In this document: piece after piece, positions 50,222 through 61,416 of the stretch | Layout: every line of letters starts with the position of its first letter | How positions within the stretch are numbered: position 1 is the stretch's first letter | Assembly (NCBI GenBank): GCA_019187405.1 | Contig: JABAQZ010000006.1 | Span: 110,445 to 174,444, forward strand | Source: Ignavibacteria bacterium | GTDB lineage: Bacteria; Bacteroidota; Ignavibacteria; Tepidaquicellales; Tepidaquicellaceae | Direction: 5' to 3' | DNA length: 64,000 nucleotides | The notes under the pieces: generated by a model | The model's input: the letters and a program-made list of their open reading frames with translations, nothing else | Database searches by the model: none | What the model was told of the DNA's origin: nothing | Made by a program: the position numbers and the translations under genes

Positions 50222-51466
50222 TTAAATATCGCTGTCCATTTGCACCAAACCGTTTTTGATTAAATGAGCAATGATGAATGTTTTGTTTTCGAGATAGAGG
50301 TAGCAAAGCAAGTTGTTTTCATTATCGTGCTTAATGTTATCATATTTCAGAAACACTCGTTTCCCTTTTGTTTTTTCAATTAGACATGATGTTGCTTTGC
50401 CGTTAGTTATCGGATCTTCTTTTACTCCAAGCAGTTTTACTGTAAGGTCGTTGCTTAATCGAATTTTTTCAGTGCTTAAAACTTCTTTTACTGTAAATAA
50501 TTCTTCTCGTTTGCTTGAACTGTCCTTGTCAATCTTAGAGCCGAATTGAAGTTTATTTACATCAATTTTCTTGTCAAGTGTATGCGGGTCTTTGAAAATG
50601 TATGGCAGATTTTGAATTTCCTTTTCAAAGTTGGTTTTCAATTTATTTTGTTCTAAAAACTCGTAAGTCGTTCCGTTCAAATCCTTTTGATGAACTTCCA
50701 ATTTTTCTTTGATGATTGGAATAAACTCGGGATTGATTTCAAAACCAACAGAATTTCTGTCGGTATTCTTTGCTGCCAAAGCTGTTGTGCCTCTACCAGC
50801 AAATGGGTCAAGAACAGTTTCCCCAACAAACGAAAACATTTTGTTTAGTCGTCTTGGTAATTCTTCGGGAAACATTGCAATATGTCCGCTTTATCTTGCT
50901 TCTGCAAAATTCCAATGCCCTGCATAGAATGTGTTCCATTCTTCGGCAGTCATCTTGGAAAGTTCTTTTTTGTTCTTTGGTCGGTTTCGGGCTATCACCT
51001 AATTTTTTGAATACAAGAATGAACTCGTAATCCAATCTCAAAATTCCGTTTCTCGGATATGGATAGGAACCCATTTGAACGCCACCGCCTGTTGTGTTGG
51101 ATGTAGTTATTTTTGCCAAATAATAGCACCCATATAGTCAAAGCCAATATTTTCGCAGAACTTGATAATTTCTTCTCGAATGGGAATGACCTTGTAACGT
51201 CCGTAGTAAACTGCTCGGGCAAATTGGTCGCCTATGTTTACACACAACCTGCAACCGTTGTGAAGAGTACGGTAGCACTCTTTCCAAACCAAATTCAGGT
51301 TGTTAATGTAATTTTCGTAGCTGTCGTGGAAACCGATTTGATTGTCAGTTCCATAGTCCTTTAGCTGTCAATAGGGTGGCGGAGTAATAGCCAAATGCAC
51401 CGAATTGACAGGCAATTCAGCCATTTGTCTGCTGTCTCCGTTTATTATTTTATGATGAGTTTTCAA
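50222..51466 (-). pseudogene. Site-specific DNA methyltransferase (beta class) with two stops and two frameshifts
   Basis: From a TTG start at 51466: HHKIINGDSRQM, then NSVHLAITPPPY, immediately followed by TGA at 51370-51368 where the family has Trp (TPPPYW, motif IV). The frame continues through CRLCVNIGDQFAR to IIWQK (51107). A frameshift leads to GGGVQMGSYPYPRNGIL and LDYEFILVFKKLGDSPKPTK. A second shift near 50965 leads to MTAEEWNTFYAGHWNFAEAR and a TAA (about 50893). Then FPEELPRRLNKMF and motif I LDPFAGRGTTALAAKNTDR. Motif IV before motif I is beta-class order. It is the partner of the MjaI-like gene. Confidence 0.8.
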
Positions 51467-51585
51467 GTCGTTCTATATTAAATTTTTTCTCGCTCAAAGT
51501 TATTCAAAATGTCGGGTTTACTGTCTAAAAGTTATCAAGTTTTCACCTGTCGCTTGATGGTAGTATTGTCGCCCTGCCATTTCCG

Positions 51586-51715
51586 CCAACGGTCGAGTGT
51601 AGCAGCAGTAAGGGATTGCGGGCTACTTCACTGTCCAACGACACCAAAGTTTAAAAGGGATAGAATGCTTGAATTACCTCTAAAACCCTTATTGCTGCTA
51701 CACTTTGTTACATGC
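51586..51715 (-). repeat. attC-like site A (own stem sequence)
   Basis: Left arm GAGTGTAGCAGCAGTAAGGG (51595-51614) pairs 18 of 20 with the right arm at 51686-51705. Ends: CCAAC at 51586 and GTTAC at 51707-51711. It lies 35 bp after the stop of the DUF1254/1214 gene. The stem differs from all other sites. Confidence 0.65.
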
Positions 51716-53261: not shown

Positions 53262-53364
53262 CGGTAACGTTTTGCAGCTTGGCGAAGTGGCGGATTTCGG
53301 AGCATGGTACCTTCCATCTTTAAATTTATTTAATGTAAAAATACAATTTTTTATTTTGTTATCT
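53262..53364 (-). repeat. Degenerate attC-like half-site B
   Basis: The left arm GCTTGGCGAAGTGGCGGAT (53278-53296) follows GTAACGTTTTGCA as in the complete sites, but no matching right arm follows: an AT-rich stretch leads to TTTTGTTAT at about 53354-53362. Site C begins 17 bp further on. Probably a decayed site or the scar of a deleted cassette. Confidence 0.5.
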
Positions 53365-53380
53365 AGCCTCACAAATGACC

Positions 53381-53513
53381 ACTAACAGTTCTCGGCTTGG
53401 CGTAGTGGCGGATTATTAGCACTAAAGTTCAATCGAAAAACAAATGTTGAACCTTGCACAAATGTTCAATCGAAGCCGTTCAGCCCCGCTTTTGGCAATA
53501 CCTTGTTATAGGC
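53381..53513 (-). repeat. attC-like site C, chimeric arms
   Basis: From ACTAACAG to CTTGTTATAGG. Left arm CGGCTTGGCGTAGTGGCGG; right arm CCCCGCTTTTGGCAATACC, whose true partner type is the left arm of sites E-G. The inner part AAAGTTCAATCGAA...CAATCGAAGCCGTTCAG is nearly the same as in site D. It lies 84 bp after the HrgA-like gene's stop. Confidence 0.65.
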
Positions 53514-53596
53514 AGCCATTCTTGTCTGTTCGTTATATTGTCCTGTCCGGTTAAGCACTTGTCTTGCGTTTTAAAGTTTCGATGTCGAGAACTTGG

Positions 53597-54469
53597 TCAT
53601 ATTCCTTGTTTATGAATTTTCTTGCTTGTGATGTCAGTCTTAACTATCGAAATAAATTCTTTAAAGTCAGCGTTCATTGTCAGTTTGTTGATTGTTTCCC
53701 AGTCAAGTGCTTCACGATATTTCGCAGGAAAGATAATTTCAGATGAATGAGGGTCTTCAAGATTTAGTTTTATAACTCCAATACCGAATGAAGTTGAAAG
53801 TCGAGATAACTCACTTCTAAATTCTTCTTCTTCGGAAACTTCTGCTGCAACTAAATAACTTTCGTTCGCCCAACTTGAGTTTGAAACTGTCTGAAAAAAA
53901 CTCTCTCTCAGATTTCCAAAACTTAGTTCTCGTTTGAGTTCAAATGATAAAAGTCGGATTGAAATATTTCCGATTGATGAACTTAACTCATAAACTTCTT
54001 GCTTCAAGTCGTCAAGCGGAAAGTAGCAACCAACTATGTCCGGGTGAACCCACTCGCCAAATTCTTTTTTTGAAGATTGTGAATGGTTAATTGTCTTGGT
54101 GTAGCAATGCAAATGGTAATAAGCGTAATATGTCAAGTATGGATGCAGGTCTTTCTCTAAAAAGTCAAACCGTTTTTTCTTAGCTACTGTCGGTTCTTTT
54201 GAAACTGCGGTGTCAGAAAGGTCAATTTGGTTTGCTTGTGATTTTAAGTAAAACTTTTTCGGTCTGCTGTCTGTCTGTGCAAAAGGTGATTTTGGATTGT
54301 CCTTTGCGTTAACATAAATCTGTGCACCGAGTGTCGCCCAAGGAGTTTTGCCTTCGCTGTTAAGTTGTTTGTCAAAACCTTTTTCTGTCGCCAAAGTCCA
54401 AATTTCGTTGGCGGTCAGCGGTCGCTTTTCTTCACTTAAAACTCTTTCGGCTAATTCTAAAAATGTCAT
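53597..54469 (-). CDS. HrgA-like protein with HARE-HTH domain
   Basis: 290 aa. N-terminal HARE-HTH winged helix (FLELAERVLSEEKRPLTANEI, WTLATEKGFDK, TPWATLGAQIYVNAKDN, about residues 2-75), a linker, and a C-terminal domain with EFGEWVHPDIVGCYFPLDDL and SYLVAAEVSEEEEFRSELSR that matches the COG2958/HrgA pattern, a PD-(D/E)XK-like fold in some descriptions (from memory). HrgA proteins are found beside restriction-modification genes. Here it sits alone in a cassette between sites C and D, without a methyltransferase. Confidence 0.72.
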   Translation of the reverse strand: MTFLELAERVLSEEKRPLTANEIWTLATEKGFDKQLNSEGKTPWATLGAQIYVNAKDNPKSPFAQTDSRPKKFYLKSQANQIDLSDTAVSKEPTVAKKKRFDFLEKDLHPYLTYYAYYHLHCYTKTINHSQSSKKEFGEWVHPDIVGCYFPLDDLKQEVYELSSSIGNISIRLLSFELKRELSFGNLRESFFQTVSNSSWANESYLVAAEVSEEEEFRSELSRLSTSFGIGVIKLNLEDPHSSEIIFPAKYREALDWETINKLTMNADFKEFISIVKTDITSKKIHKQGI

Positions 54470-54515
54470 TCTTTTTTGTCTTTTATGTTTGGTTGCACTG
54501 TCGTCTTATGGTTGC

Positions 54516-54646
54516 CATAACGGTTTTGGGCTTGGCGAAGTGGCGGATTATTAGCACTAAAGTTCAATCGAAGAACGAATGTTGAACCTTTCACAAATGT
54601 CCAATCGAAGCCGTTCAACCCCGCTTTTGGCAATATCTTGTTATGC
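54516..54646 (-). repeat. attC-like site D, chimeric arms
   Basis: CATAACGG at the left and CTTGTTATGC at the right. Left arm GGGCTTGGCGAAGTGGCGG; right arm CCCCGCTTTTGGCAATATC. As in site C, the arms belong to two different families. It starts 9 bp after the stop of the retropepsin gene on the minus strand. Confidence 0.68.
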
Positions 54647-54655
54647 ACAGTGCTT

Positions 54656-55327
54656 TTATTCATATTTTATTTTTCCATTCTTAATGTCAAGACAGACTTT
54701 GAAATTATTAAAGAAGTCAACCCCGATAATTCCATTTGTTCCGCCCAACATCAATGTCATTTGTAATAAATTCGGCAAGTTTCCATACTTAACTTGAAAT
54801 TCTTTACTTCCGAAATTAGTCAATATCTCGTAGCATTTAGTTTCAAACTTTCCAACACCCGGATAAAAGTCTTCTTCTATTCCGATACTCGTATGTTGCG
54901 ATGTCAGTTTACTATCAAGATATGATAGTTTTGCTCCTGTGTCCAAAAAGAATTTTAGTATTTGATTGTCAACTATCAATTCAATAATTGGAATACCCAT
55001 AAAAGATAAAATGGATATTTCATTGCTAAGAGAGTGTGTTTCATCTTTACTAAAAACCACAACTTCGTTTTTGTAGTCAAGCAAAACCTTGAAGTTTGAT
55101 AAAATGTCAGCACCAATTAAAGTTGTTATTTCTGTTCCCAACATTTCTGATATTTTTTGAACTGTCAAACCCATATAATTTGTCGTACAACTGAAATTGT
55201 CTGAACAAAAAAATAAATTATTCGCAAAGTGGATAGTAGAAGGTGCTCCCGTATCAATAAGCATTATATTTTCACCGTCTTTAATAATCGGATGCCCTTT
55301 GAATAGATTTATTTGAAATGTTGTCAT
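54656..55327 (-). CDS. Tandem retropepsin-like aspartic protease domains
   Basis: 223 aa. Two DTG catalytic motifs in retropepsin context: IMLIDTGAPSTIHF (about residue 25) and KFFLDTGAKLSYLD (about residue 128). Each is followed by a second-half hydrophobic-Gly motif (TTLIGADILSNFKVLLDY and GGTNGIIGVDFFNNFKVCLD). The two halves are clearly homologous, so one chain could form a pepsin-like pseudo-dimer. No signal peptide, so an intracellular site is likely. The ATG overlaps the upstream methyltransferase stop by 4 bp (ATGA), making a two-gene cassette before site D. Substrate unknown. Confidence 0.78.
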   Translation of the reverse strand: MTTFQINLFKGHPIIKDGENIMLIDTGAPSTIHFANNLFFCSDNFSCTTNYMGLTVQKISEMLGTEITTLIGADILSNFKVLLDYKNEVVVFSKDETHSLSNEISILSFMGIPIIELIVDNQILKFFLDTGAKLSYLDSKLTSQHTSIGIEEDFYPGVGKFETKCYEILTNFGSKEFQVKYGNLPNLLQMTLMLGGTNGIIGVDFFNNFKVCLDIKNGKIKYE

Positions 55328-56046
55328 TGCTTCTTAAATAAATTGTATGTTGAACCTGTTGAACTGAATAGAGTAAACGCTTTGTTTGTATCCACAAAAC
55401 CGTTGTCTTGCAGTAAATTGTCAAGCATGTTGATCGACCAATATCTGATATTAAACTCGTCTTGATATTCAAATTTTTATCCGTTAAAAATTCCATTACA
55501 AGTTTCTTTGTAAGTAAAAATATCATTGCTACTGTTTGTTAGCTCAACAGAACGATTGAAATTTTCTGACTGTATATTCATTATCCTACCTGCATTAAAG
55601 AAAATCATATTAGGTAAGTCAAAGAAAAAATATTCGTTTGGCTTTATGTGTCTGCAAATGTTGTTTACAGTTTCGGATAGTTCTTGCTCACTTACTAAAT
55701 AACTCAAAACCGTAAAAAGTGCTATTGCTTAATCGGCTTTTCCGTTGTCGTATTCTGCGATTGAGCAATTTTTTATTTGTATGTCAAGGTTGTGTTTAAT
55801 TTGGTTTGCTCTAAATTGTTCAACCATTCCTATGCTTTTTTCTACTGCGACAACAGAATAATTTTGTTCAGTTAATGGAATTGAAAGTCGTCCTGTCCCT
55901 GCACCAAAGTCAAGAATTGTCCCTTTGGGCAAAATTTGGTTAATTACGTTGAGGGTTTCTATTGTCAAGTTGCTGTAAAAACTTCCAAAAGTCTGTTCGT
56001 AAACAAAGTCGTAAAAAGTTGCCCAATTGTCGTGTGGTTGTTTCAT
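55324..56046 (-). pseudogene. Class I SAM-dependent methyltransferase with two in-frame TAA codons
   Basis: One frame from ATG 56046 to TGA 55324. MKQPHDNWATFYDFVYEQ; motif I GTILDFGAGTGRLSIPLTEQ; VVAVEKSIGMVEQFR; IAEYDNGKAD, TAA at 55729; then AIALFTVLSYLVSEQELSE, PNEYFFFDLPNM; CNGIFNG, TAA at about 55485; then KFEYQDEFNIRYWSINML to the end. All parts fit one methyltransferase in order. The substrate is unknown. The upstream frame to 56112 lies in site E and is not coding. Either a recent pseudogene or sequencing errors at two places. Confidence 0.78.
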
Positions 56047-56068
56047 TGTTTGCGGTCTATTAGCATTG

Positions 56069-56203
56069 TGCACAACGGTTTGGGTATTGCCGAAGGCGGG
56101 GCGTTTCAGCACTACGGTACATTTGAAAAACTAAAGTTGAATATAGCACAAAAGTGTCATAGATGTTCGTCACCCCCGCTTTTGGCAATACCTTGTTATG
56201 TGC
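56069..56203 (-). repeat. attC-like site E
   Basis: GCACAACGG at the left and CTTGTTATGTGC at the right. Arms GGTATTGCCGAAGGCGGGG (56084-56102) and CCCCGCTTTTGGCAATACC pair with few mismatches. It is over 115 bp after the SnoaL-like gene's stop and 23 bp before the methyltransferase ATG. Confidence 0.72.
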
Positions 56204-56318: not shown

Positions 56319-57086
56319 TTAAAACTTTCCATTGTTATTTTTCCAATTCTCTTTAGTAGGTATTGGCTCAATCACATCCCAATGCTCGGCAATTTTTCCA
56401 TTCTCAACTCTGAATAAGTCGTAAAATGAATTATGCTTTCCTGCAAGATGTCCTTCGCTTACTGATATAACAAAATTACCTTCGCCTAATACTTTATGAA
56501 TGGTATCGTACTTCATTGTGATACCTTGTTTTCCCCATTCTTCAAGAGCACTTCCAAGTCCTGAAAGTTGGTCAGCAATTAAAGGATTGTGTTGAATATA
56601 ATTATCGCCATCAAAATAGCCTGTAAGTTTTTCCATTCTTCCATTTACTAAAATGTCGTCAACAAAATTTCTTACAAGCGTTTTGTTGGCTTCTGTTTTG
56701 TCAAGGTCTTTAATTTCGGTTGTACCATCAATCATTGTGTGTCCACTTGGGTTTGGCTGGCTTGGTGTTTCCTGCAAGTTGTCCCAATGTTCAACGATTT
56801 TTCCGTCTTCGAAACGGAAGATGTCAAACCCAATTTTTGGACCGAAGAAATTATAATCGGTATGAGTAAAAACATAATCTCCATCCTGAAAAGAACGAAC
56901 AGTATTTACTTTTGCAGAATTTGGTGGCAATGCTTGTAACAATGCTCCAAAACCTGAAAGCCCATCAGCTGCACCTAAATTGTGCTGAATGTATTTGTTT
57001 GGATTAATATAGCCAATAGGCTCTGTTGCTCCTGTTTCAATTGCCTTTAATAGGCTTACTACTTTTTGTTTGTTTGAAATTTCCAT
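56319..57086 (-). CDS. SnoaL-like (NTF2-fold) protein, duplicated domain
   Basis: 255 aa. Two copies of an NTF2/SnoaL-like fold of about 125 residues: first IGYINPNKYIQHNLGAADGL...GPKIGFDIFRFEDGKIVEHWDN, second YFDGDNYIQHNPLIADQLSG...NSFYDLFRVENGKIAEHWDV. The shared NYIQHN and GKI.EHWD motifs are typical of predicted SnoaL-like polyketide-cyclase relatives. The substrate is unknown. It follows an AraC regulator gene in the same cassette, so AraC control is likely. A tiny ORF with a lipoprotein signal lies just upstream. Confidence 0.82.
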   Translation of the reverse strand: MEISNKQKVVSLLKAIETGATEPIGYINPNKYIQHNLGAADGLSGFGALLQALPPNSAKVNTVRSFQDGDYVFTHTDYNFFGPKIGFDIFRFEDGKIVEHWDNLQETPSQPNPSGHTMIDGTTEIKDLDKTEANKTLVRNFVDDILVNGRMEKLTGYFDGDNYIQHNPLIADQLSGLGSALEEWGKQGITMKYDTIHKVLGEGNFVISVSEGHLAGKHNSFYDLFRVENGKIAEHWDVIEPIPTKENWKNNNGKF

Positions 57087-57110
57087 TTTTTTTCTTTTTG
57101 GATTTGTGAA

Positions 57111-57188
57111 TTATAGAGTTGATTGATTGGTGCAAGCTGAAAATCCAACTCCTAAAATTATCGCTGCACTTAGTACCGTCTTGTTCAT
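57111..57188 (-). CDS. 25-aa ORF with a complete lipoprotein signal
   Basis: MNKTVLSAAIILGVGFSACT followed by five residues and TAA. It has a basic start, hydrophobic core and lipobox GFSAC, then ends. It lies 24 bp upstream of the SnoaL-like gene. Either a mini-lipoprotein or the severed signal peptide of an originally secreted SnoaL-like protein. The stop is clear; expression is not shown. Confidence 0.4.
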   Translation of the reverse strand: MNKTVLSAAIILGVGFSACTNQSTL

Positions 57189-57271
57189 TTTGAATTGATT
57201 ACAATGACAATACAAAATTGCAACGATAAACAAAAAGGTAAAAGGTAGAAACAGTCCTTTGAATGATACTT

Positions 57272-58144
57272 TTAAGCCAAAGCAAATTGCTCTCTAAATT
57301 CAACAGGTGTTGAATTGTTGTGTTTGCGAAAGAATTTTATAAAGTTGGTCGGCTCATCAAAGCCCAAGTCAAAACCAATTTCTTTTACACTTTGGTAAGT
57401 GTGAACTAACAGTCGCTTGGCTTCAAGCATAACTCTTTCGTCAATCATTTGCTTTGGCGATTTGCCCAAAATCTTTGATGTTGCTTGGTTCAACCGCTTT
57501 TCGGTTATGCTTATTTTATTAGCGTAGTTGCTTACTTGTTTCAACTTGCGGTAGTTGGATTCTAAAATGTCTTTGAAGAGCATTACATAGTCAAGGTCAG
57601 CACTTTTTTTAATTTCTGTGAAATTTTGTTTCCTTCTTTCTCTTTCAGATAGAAGTAAAAAGTTATGTAATAGATTTTTTAGAATATCGGGCTGTGAAAT
57701 GTCTTTTTCGTTTTCTAATTCAATTTCCATTAGTTGAAACAAATGGGCAAACAACGAAGCAGTTTTGCTCATTTGAATTTGAGAAACTGAAAACAAGTCG
57801 TTGAATAAAATACTGCTCCGTAAATACTTTATGTCTGCTTCTGTCTTGCAGAAAAAACTGTCAGTAAACAGAATTGCTTTGCCGTCAAAACCACCTTTTT
57901 TGTCAAATCGCTGAACCGTGTCCTTGTTCAGAAACAGCAAAGTATCAGGCTTTATTTTAATTGGATTGAAATCAACAATATGTGTCGGGCTGCCTTTTTG
58001 AAACCAAAGAATATGATAAAAACCTGCCCGATGTGGAGTTGTCAATATGGCAGAATGGTTGTTGTATAATTGTCCGATGCCAACCAACTCAAATTCTTGT
58101 GGCAGTCCCTGTTTGAATGAATATTTCTTAATGTTGGACTTCAT
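57272..58144 (-). CDS. AraC-family transcriptional regulator
   Basis: 290 aa from ATG 58144; a GTG at 58156 is an alternative that would add four residues. N-terminal cupin-like sensor domain (FYHILWFQKGSPTHIVDF, LLFLNKDTVQRF), then the two C-terminal HTH motifs (SITEKRLNQATSKILGKSP and SVKEIGFDLGFDEPTNFIKF, then NSTPVEFREQF). It binds DNA as a one-component regulator. Encoded just after site F (30 bp) and upstream of the SnoaL-like gene, probably its target. Confidence 0.88.
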   Translation of the reverse strand: MKSNIKKYSFKQGLPQEFELVGIGQLYNNHSAILTTPHRAGFYHILWFQKGSPTHIVDFNPIKIKPDTLLFLNKDTVQRFDKKGGFDGKAILFTDSFFCKTEADIKYLRSSILFNDLFSVSQIQMSKTASLFAHLFQLMEIELENEKDISQPDILKNLLHNFLLLSERERRKQNFTEIKKSADLDYVMLFKDILESNYRKLKQVSNYANKISITEKRLNQATSKILGKSPKQMIDERVMLEAKRLLVHTYQSVKEIGFDLGFDEPTNFIKFFRKHNNSTPVEFREQFALA

Positions 58145-58173
58145 TTTCTGTTGCACGGTTGTCTTTTAGGGTT

Positions 58174-58308
58174 GCCTATAACGGTTTGGGTATTGCCGAA
58201 GGCGGGGCGTTTCAGCACTACTGTTCATTTGAAAAACTAAAGTTGAATATAGCACAAAAGTTTCATAGAAGTTCGTCACCCCCGCTTTTGGGTAGCTGCT
58301 GTTATGGG
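58174..58308 (-). repeat. attC-like site F, diverged right arm
   Basis: CTATAACGG at the left; right end GCTGTTATGGG. The left arm equals site E, and the inner GAAAAACTAAAGTTGAATAT is shared with E, but the right end reads CGCTTTTGGGTAGCTGCTG instead of the expected TTGGCAATACC, so only the inner stem pairs. Confidence 0.58.
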
Positions 58309-58897: not shown

Positions 58898-59032
58898 CGC
58901 TAACGTTTTGGGTATTGCCGAAGGCAGGGATTTTTAGCACTAAAGTATAATAGAATTACTGCTGTTGAACTTTGCACAAATGTCCAATCGAAGCCGTTCA
59001 GCCCCGCTTTTGGCAATACCTTGTTATGTGTG
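58898..59032 (-). repeat. attC-like site G
   Basis: GCTAACG at the left and CTTGTTATGTG at the right. Arms GGGTATTGCCGAAGGCAGGG and GCCCCGCTTTTGGCAATACC pair; the inner part resembles sites C and D (CAATCGAAGCCGTTCAG). The 58717-58897 stretch before it holds no recognisable gene. Confidence 0.72.
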
Positions 59033-59992: not shown

Positions 59993-60087
59993 CACATAAC
60001 GGTTCGTGGCTTGGCGATGGCGGGCATTTATACACAACACTTCAATTAACAAACGCCGCCCGCTATCGCTAAGCCGATGTTATGCGT
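59993..60087 (-). repeat. attC-like site H, well paired
   Basis: CACATAACGG at the left, GATGTTATGCG at the right. Arms GGCTTGGCGATGGCGGGC and GCCCGCTATCGCTAAGCC pair 16 of 18. At about 95 bp it is the shortest site and the closest in size and stem to a typical attC. A GCGTTCGTGCT tail is shared with site J. Confidence 0.75.
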
Positions 60088-60223
60088 TCGTGCTGATGTC
60101 ACACATGGTAAATTTAAAAAAATAAATTATTCTATAAGTCGGCATTTCTATAAAAATCTGTTTCACAACTTTGCTCGTCAAATATTTTAAATAAAATGTG
60201 CCTGAAAAACTAATTATCAGCAT
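60080..60223 (-). CDS. Candidate 47-aa cassette ORF ending inside site H
   Basis: From ATG at 60223 (4 bp after site I) an open frame reads MLIISFSGTFYLKYLTSKVV and on to CDISTNA, ending in TAA that is part of site H's RYAYAAC box (60080-60082). A stop inside attC is usual for integron cassettes. The segment between sites H and I otherwise has no gene. No homology recognised; could be chance in AT-rich DNA. Confidence 0.3.
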   Translation of the reverse strand: MLIISFSGTFYLKYLTSKVVKQIFIEMPTYRIIYFFKFTMCDISTNA

Positions 60224-60226
60224 GTC

Positions 60227-60420
60227 GCATAACGGACAGGGCTTTATGCAGGTTGGGAATTAGTATTCCGTCTGCCCATAGCCGCTGCGGATTGAAAATA
60301 TGTTGATGAATCAAGTACAAAAGCTGATGGTTATTCGTCTGACCGAGCTGAAGCTGAGATTTGCAAATAGCTGATGTTACAATGTCAACCCCAACTTGCA
60401 TAAAACCCAATGTTGTAGGC
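60227..60420 (-). repeat. attC-like site I, long central segment
   Basis: CGCATAACGG at the left, AATGTTGTAGG at the right. Arms GGGCTTTATGCAGGTTGGG (60239-60257) and CCCAACTTGCATAAAACCC pair 17 of 19. About 130 bp separate the arms, so the loop is much longer than in the other sites. Its frame on the minus strand is a by-product. Confidence 0.65.
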
Positions 60421-61269: not shown

Positions 61270-61416
61270 GCCTACAACGGTTCGGGGCTTGGCGATGGCG
61301 GGCATTACGAAGCACTAAACTGTCGGCAAGCATCCCGCAGCATTGCGGGATAAAATAGAAGCACAACACATCAATTAACCACTGCCCGCCCGCTATCGCT
61401 AAGCCCTTGTTGTGCG
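61270..61416 (-). repeat. attC-like site J with extra internal hairpin
   Basis: CTACAACGG at the left, CTTGTTGTGCG at the right. Arms GGGCTTGGCGATGGCGGGC and GCCCGCTATCGCTAAGCCC pair almost throughout. The central part contains a second hairpin, ATCCCGCAGCATTGCGGGAT (61332-61351). It lies 17 bp after the stop of the aldo/keto reductase gene. Confidence 0.75.

Follow-up and report, generated by a model that had tools for sequence, protein, structure and literature searches.

Integron arrays, such as that of Vibrio cholerae (or CALIN if no integrase is adjacent), are the closest described systems to the cassette arrays analyzed here. Like them, the present arrays consist of co-oriented genes and imperfect palindromes with AAC...GTT ends, the arms are kept as complements more than as sequence, the cassettes are joined at GTTATGC, and one array is headed by an integrase. 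In canonical attC sites, the bottom strand carries two or three extrahelical bases (PMC2727003, in the portion of the report available), and these bases are docked by the I2 helix of IntI according to the accessible part of a structural account (PMC7790495). The present system differs in that its integrase lacks the IntI-specific insertion and some of its sites are chimeric. Complete integrons have been listed by IntegronFinder 2.0 in Chlorobi, Ignavibacteriae, and one Salinibacter (PMC9024848, partial text). The titles and abstract openings of the matches listed, which cover few subscription papers, describe neither chimeric attC arms nor arrays of this kind accompanied by an integrase that lacks the additional domain. 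The system is an integron-like variant and not a proven integron.

Cassette array in the window

The window is the whole stretch of 64,000 nucleotides analyzed here, from the genome of an Ignavibacteria bacterium (contig JABAQZ010000006.1, positions 110,445 to 174,444). On its minus strand, the region from 51.5 to 62.6 kb carries co-oriented genes, each ending in an imperfect palindrome, mostly of 132 nt, that starts with NNNNAAC and ends with GTTNNNN. In cassette orientation, a site reads R'', L'', loop, L', R', and the left and right arms of the original prediction correspond to L' and L'', respectively. The sites, in the listed order B, A (a half site), C, D, E, G, H, I, the long site, and J, and the cassette genes that concern us are as follows.

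51584 to 51713, minus strand: site B, arms matched, GTGTAGCAGC family
53263 to 53317, minus strand: site A, only the 3' half recognizable (GGCTTGGCG-family arm), profile positions 78 to 131
53380 to 53511, minus strand: site C, hybrid, GGTATTGCC-family 5' half and loop with a GGCTTGGCG-family 3' arm
53597 to 54469, minus strand: cassette gene terminating in C, 290 aa, HARE-HTH domain
54515 to 54646, minus strand: site D, C-type hybrid, 92% identical to C over 127 nt
54656 to 55327, minus strand: cassette gene terminating in D, 223 aa, match to retropepsin-like aspartyl protease
56070 to 56201, minus strand: site E, arms matched, GGTATTGCC family
56319 to 58156, minus strand: two-gene cassette between G and E, SnoaL-like (56319 to 57086) and AraC-type regulator (57272 to 58156)
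58176 to 58307, minus strand: site G, hybrid in the other arm, GCAGCTACC-family 5' arm with E-type body
58898 to 59029, minus strand: site H, matched, GGTATTGCC family, near kin of the 5' part of C and D
59995 to 60086, minus strand: site I, short (92 nt), matched, GGCTTGGCGA family, terminating the 233-bp cassette
60227 to 60418, minus strand: long site (192 nt), matched, GGGCTTTATGCAGG family
61272 to 61415, minus strand: site J, matched, GGCTTGGCGA family

The six Phage_integrase (PF00589) hits of the genome are located on contigs C15, C16, and C21, with none at the window array. As a cluster of sites without a nearby integrase, the array fits the description of a CALIN, but its sites differ from canonical attC. 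The SnoaL-like and AraC-type pair has a homologous copy on contig C33 (L090:3237-5609), with amino acid identities of 94% and 75%, respectively, and the site that comes after that copy has a different loop type. Between D and E (window 55281 to 56112) lies a methyltransferase-like gene (PF13649) that is apparently broken into short ORFs, and just beyond the array (window 50222 to 51450) lies a DNA methylase gene (PF01555), apparently in pieces, with a relative of 65% identity in L174.

A 233-bp cassette containing no ORF of 60 aa is repeated on contigs C1 and C21, partly in tandem and partly dispersed, at the following positions.

Window 59996 to 60228
L089, 10794 to 12805 and from 17703 onward
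L092, 14595 to 15290

This cassette, which behaves as a mobile unit joined at the R-box GTT, follows sites of four different types in this genome and also follows copies of itself. The join is always GTTATGC, which lies outside the arms, after L' of the upstream site.

Anatomy of the sites

In all 87 sites of 132 nt, not selected for pairing, the fraction of the 18 arm positions that pair is 0.67, compared with 0.511 ± 0.013 when the halves are shuffled among sites; the figures for pairing-selected sites are 0.694 and 0.507. The AAC/GTT pairs reach at least 0.95 (74 sites). The R and L boxes are complementary overall, with the exception of the L boxes of C and D and, in part, G. The sites differ from those of integron arrays in a conserved A.C pair at positions 22/107 (77 of the 87 sites), which reads G.T on the opposite strand. 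They also differ in that the asymmetric interruption of the L stem is absent from the opposite strand in 57 of 74 pairing 132-nt sites, a count that omits the unpaired spacer beside the R box and that turns into 64 of 74 interrupted when the spacer is included. The opposite strand is the more stable one in 57 of the 74 pairing sites. Extrahelical bases appear to be lacking in most of the sites examined, which were 132-nt sites with pairing arms.

Arm families and folding of the hybrid sites

On the forward strand, the left arm of C and D reads GGCTTGGCG(T/A)AGTGGCGGATT and the right arm reads CCCCGCTTTTGGCAATA(C/T)C; in cassette orientation, L'' belongs to the GGTATTGCC family and L' to the GGCTTGGCG family. 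Both the sequence and a left-by-right matrix of duplex energies confirm the original prediction that these sites combine the left arm of one family with the right arm of another. The duplex of the own arms is −6.8 kcal/mol in C and −7.6 kcal/mol in D, with a median of −18.3 for 103 distinct homologous sites, which were found by a sequence profile with no requirement for pairing and among which C and D are within the six weakest. In the matrix computed for the minus strand of the window, the own arms give −9.4 (C), −10.4 (D), −19.8 (E), −16.0 (H), −21.3 (I), and −24.9 (J), and the left arms of C and D give −16.7 to −21.6 with the right arms of I and J. For every arm of C and D, some other site offers a partner at −17.7 or better. 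Ensemble folding of the plus strand yields 1.7 and 2.4 expected arm pairs in C and D, respectively, versus a median of 17.8 for the corresponding strand of the 103 sites; the hybrid stem is predicted to form only in part, as had been expected. By computation, C and D have lost their fold, and cassettes ending in such hybrids would presumably be locked in place by the loss of the recombining hairpin.

Sites E and G had been thought to pair their left arm with one and the same right arm. This is true of E, which is matched; G carries GGGTAGCTGC instead of GGCAATACC and is itself a hybrid. In cassette orientation, L'' of G is GCAGCTACC, and its body and L' are E-type. Its own-arm duplex is −10.6. 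With 14.7 expected arm pairs on one strand, G is damaged less severely than C and D.

Mosaic structure of the hybrids

Positions 1 to 64 of C and D share identities of 0.92 to 0.97 with H and with the site at C33:7166, and their last 34 nt come closest to sites of the GGCTTGGCG family in other genomes (0.88 for C and 0.91 for D). With the C33:7166 site and L069 as parents, one switch fits 57 of the 61 informative positions of C, and with the C33:7166 site and L059, one switch fits 37 of the 38 of D. A permutation test (10,000 permutations) gave p ≤ 1e-4 for both C and D, against p = 1 for H and E, the nonhybrid controls, which matter because the parents were selected from the nearest sites and this choice favors a mosaic. 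The switch in C and D falls at aligned columns 80 to 90 (TTGAACTTTAG, common to both families) in four of five parent choices; in the fifth, D with H and L085, it falls at columns 64 to 68, still in the loop, and fits 39 of 45 positions. The switch in G lies at columns 16 to 24 (p ≤ 1e-4), in the within-arm motif CCAAAAG, which is identical across eight aligned sites, and those in L068 and L057 lie at columns 95 to 103 (p ≤ 1e-4) and 90 to 101 (p = 0.003), respectively. The switch points are spread across blocks common to both families, with no single fixed point. Breakpoints within the loop, as suggested at the outset, are supported for C and D but not for G, which switches within the arm.

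Frequency of hybrid sites

A search with one arm only, which avoids selecting hybrids, was performed in 391 genomes of the host's class. The L'' bait AACAAGGTATTGCCAAAAGCGGGG, with one mismatch permitted, retrieved 30 sites from 10 genomes, which were read by eye from the letters as 17 matched, 11 with a foreign L' (in L209 and L217 foreign in the outer half only), and 2 with a truncated L'. When the best duplex anywhere downstream is taken, 4 of the 11 foreign sites (L201, L206, L211, and L217) still reach −12.6 to −14.4. The L' bait CGCCTTCGGCAATACCCRAA retrieved 25 sites, also from 10 genomes, comprising 18 matched sites, 4 with a foreign L'', of which L227 and L234 still fold (−17.2 and −17.9), 2 without a recognizable L'', and 1 cut by a contig end. 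The 11 sites with a foreign L' do not represent 11 events: two are C and D, five are in a single genome (G305), and L206 and L211 have their 3' half and downstream sequence in common. Hybrids of the C/D type are also present in five other genera (L163, L164, L167, L168, and L178), with identities of 72% to 93% to D, and could descend from one old recombinant.

With the bait GGCTTGGCGAAGTGGCGGATT (33 matches in 32 stretches), a clear foreign partner was found only in L057 and L068; L071 has no other half, L083 runs off its contig, and L061, L063, and L079 pair weakly yet look like variants of one family. The small number of hybrids obtained with this bait indicates that a high share of hybrids is a trait of the GGTATTGCC arm in the host's class and not of all arms. 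Among the 170 distinct full-length sites in the collected loci, a sample enriched for bait arms, 34 form own-arm duplexes weaker than −11, and for 25 of these 34, other sites offer each of the two arms a partner at −15 or better. Where the genome has an open, close integrase (G000, G542, G555, G059, and G294), 3 of 13 sites are foreign, and where it has none (G305, G132, G587, and G283) the figure is 7 of 14, both being small samples; G550 (1 of 3 foreign) was excluded from this comparison because its integrase copy is at a contig edge.

A reciprocal pair of hybrids

The genome G132, a single contig of 3,665,746 bases, contains a GGTATTGCC/CGCCAAGCCG hybrid and a CGGCTTGGC/GGCAATACC hybrid that have much of the loop in common and are located 720 kb apart on opposite strands. 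Their own arms give −6.8 and −9.8, and swapping the arms gives −19.2 and −22.4. A search by energy found six pairs that a swap would restore, of which only this one lies within one genome. A chromosomal inversion as the source of the pair is refuted, since the genes flanking the first array are less than 1 kb apart in G587, G550, G570, and G294. These conserved neighbors are separated in G132 by an array at least 21 kb long (L266 and L267; G132:C1:1083500-1105100), and the empty-site junction is too diverged to read. A search of the G132 genome found no close integrase.

Origin of the hybrid sites

C, D, and G are probably recombinant cassette-end (attC-like) sites produced by homology-driven exchange or template switching and not by the integrase. 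The mosaics, the poor pairing of own arms, the switches in shared blocks, the reciprocal pair in G132, and the recurrence of hybrids are all computed or observed. The constant GTTATGC join indicates that site-specific movement of the 233-bp cassette kept L'' and L' together, and the initial suggestion that recombination exchanges half-sites is not supported for the site-specific reaction; because the joins lie outside the arms and the switches are scattered, the hybrids are credited to homology-driven exchange within the site. Two sites of different arm families would pair through conserved blocks of the approximately 132-nt repeat, at the arm motif CCAAAAG or at TTGAACTTTTGTGCTAAAAATCC and the loop surrounding it, and everything on one side would be swapped by homologous recombination or template switching. 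The product would be one cassette with its 5' arm joined to the 3' arm of another cassette, and the exchange would presumably involve a RecA-type enzyme or replication slippage. On this reading, the sites are broken by ordinary DNA exchange between the repeats, and the genes may be frozen in place as a result.

Alternatively, the cassette integrase itself may swap half-sites inside the repeat, for example, by double-strand exchange. The enzyme lacks the insertion that is held to confine IntI to one strand (PMC7790495, in the available sections), and certain hybrids do switch within an arm. However, the scatter of the switches contrasts with the constant GTTATGC join, and hybrids occur in G305, G132, and G587, where mere integrase fragments or distant Xer-like relatives are found; unless the enzyme has since been lost from these genomes, such an exchange would not account for them, and we regard it as quite improbable. 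Descent of C and D from a single old hybrid lineage that spread as an ordinary cassette end, with no local exchange, would agree with the 92% identity of the two sites and with the recurrence of their arm combination in five other genera. Yet other combinations exist (G; L057 and L068; L193, L200, L206, and L217; and the reverse one, L237), and the genes ending in C and D are found, among the collected loci, in this genome alone, which makes such descent unlikely.

The presence of similar hybrids in other genera might also be explained if C and D were a third site family with a fold of its own or were decayed sites. A third family had been proposed for the case that the arms of C and D pair as well as those of H and J, which they do not (−9.4 and −10.4 versus −16.0 and −24.9). 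A common alternative fold is rejected as well, the consensus fold being −1.5 for seven C/D-type hybrids versus −15.7 for seven matched sites, and decay would not leave each arm of C and D with a good partner elsewhere, so this explanation is very unlikely. Assembly chimeras across the repeat deserve mention because the genome is in 38 contigs, and such sites lie at or close to an end of two of them, C21 and C33. However, C, D, and G are internal to a contig of 341 kb, and sites with foreign arms are present in the single-contig genomes G132, G587, and G059; an assembly artifact has hardly any probability. Homology-driven exchange between repeats remains the preferred reading, under which the chimeric sites separate two modes of array change, namely, precise site-specific shuffling and site-destroying exchange driven by repeats.

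Integrase of the sister array

On contig C21 of the same genome, a tyrosine recombinase of 290 aa heads an array of like sites with co-oriented cassettes.

L089:8187-9059 (G000:C21:60186-61058), cassette orientation: integrase; sites follow from L089:10660

This protein passes the profile NF040815 (230.5 versus a cutoff of 220), as do the XerC/XerD-like proteins of the genome, and scores 208 bits against the integron integrase profile TIGR02249, below the cutoff of 265, with profile positions 179 to 239 skipped. Its alignment with the V. cholerae integron integrase (2a3v) extends to either side of the gap and takes in the C-terminal tail, but the C21 protein has 21 residues at query positions 193 to 215, where 2a3v has 64. 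The IntI-specific additional domain (I2) is absent from the C21 integrase; with a genome completeness of 98.1%, a further IntI elsewhere is conceivable. The best solved relatives are XerC-like 4a8e and XerA 5hxy. The spacing between the residues that we take to be the first catalytic Arg and the HxxR His is 89, close to the values for the genome's own XerC-like (93) and XerD-like (95) proteins. In 51 of 51 family members it is 89 to 94, and these too lack the insertion; they had been retrieved by their kinship to an enzyme that has none. The C21 integrase differs from XerA, XerC, and XerD in its tail, SPLDKL, which resembles SPLSRL of V. cholerae IntI, and in its position, which in 10 of the 20 loci retrieved for relatives is directly before a cassette array.

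Relatives of the integrase were found in 83 of 296 genomes of the phylum at E ≤ 1e-60. In the 10 loci mentioned, a site lies within approximately 2 kb downstream, in L129 beside an integrase fragment; 3 of the other 10 loci end within 0.3 kb. A scan for sites at −14 yielded 39 hits across 21 loci, and one crude shuffle yielded 3. The stretches in named genomes carrying the L' arm GGCTTGGCGAAGTGGCGGATT (32) are titled as Bacteroidota groups in 27 cases, Oscillospiraceae in 4, and WOR-3 in 1, and the integrase was detected at E ≤ 1e-50 in 13 of 19 of these arm-bearing genomes by a whole-genome search at any position.

The integrase and its sites may have changed together. It is a tentative but serious possibility that these Bacteroidota arrays form a distinct class of integron, in which the integrase would be an IntI relative without I2, the sites would lack extrahelical bases, and the strand would be marked by the A.C pair, read as G.T on the recombining strand. 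In such a class, uniform site interiors would lead to frequent general recombination between cassettes, and arrays would be reshuffled continually and then frozen by chimeras that do not fold. If the integrase works without the insertion held necessary for single-strand recombination, this would bear on how integron integrases arose, a history reported to lack intermediates (PMC7790495, partial text). IntegronFinder detects IntIs by PF00589 together with a profile of the IntI-specific domain (PMC9668308, in the part available), and the program would be expected to pass over the C21 integrase. If so, searches that demand the IntI-specific domain overlook such arrays.

A weak integrase match with nine stop codons is located at G587:C1:3216971-3217684 (in L273), approximately 4.5 kb from a cassette-end site. 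By label, the like sites in L064, L065, L070, and L076 (Oscillospiraceae MAGs) and in L069 (a WOR-3 MAG) fall outside Bacteroidota, where they may reflect transfer or a binning error. With regard to an attI site, GTTATGC can be read by eye after the integrase in the C21 array, near L089:9147.
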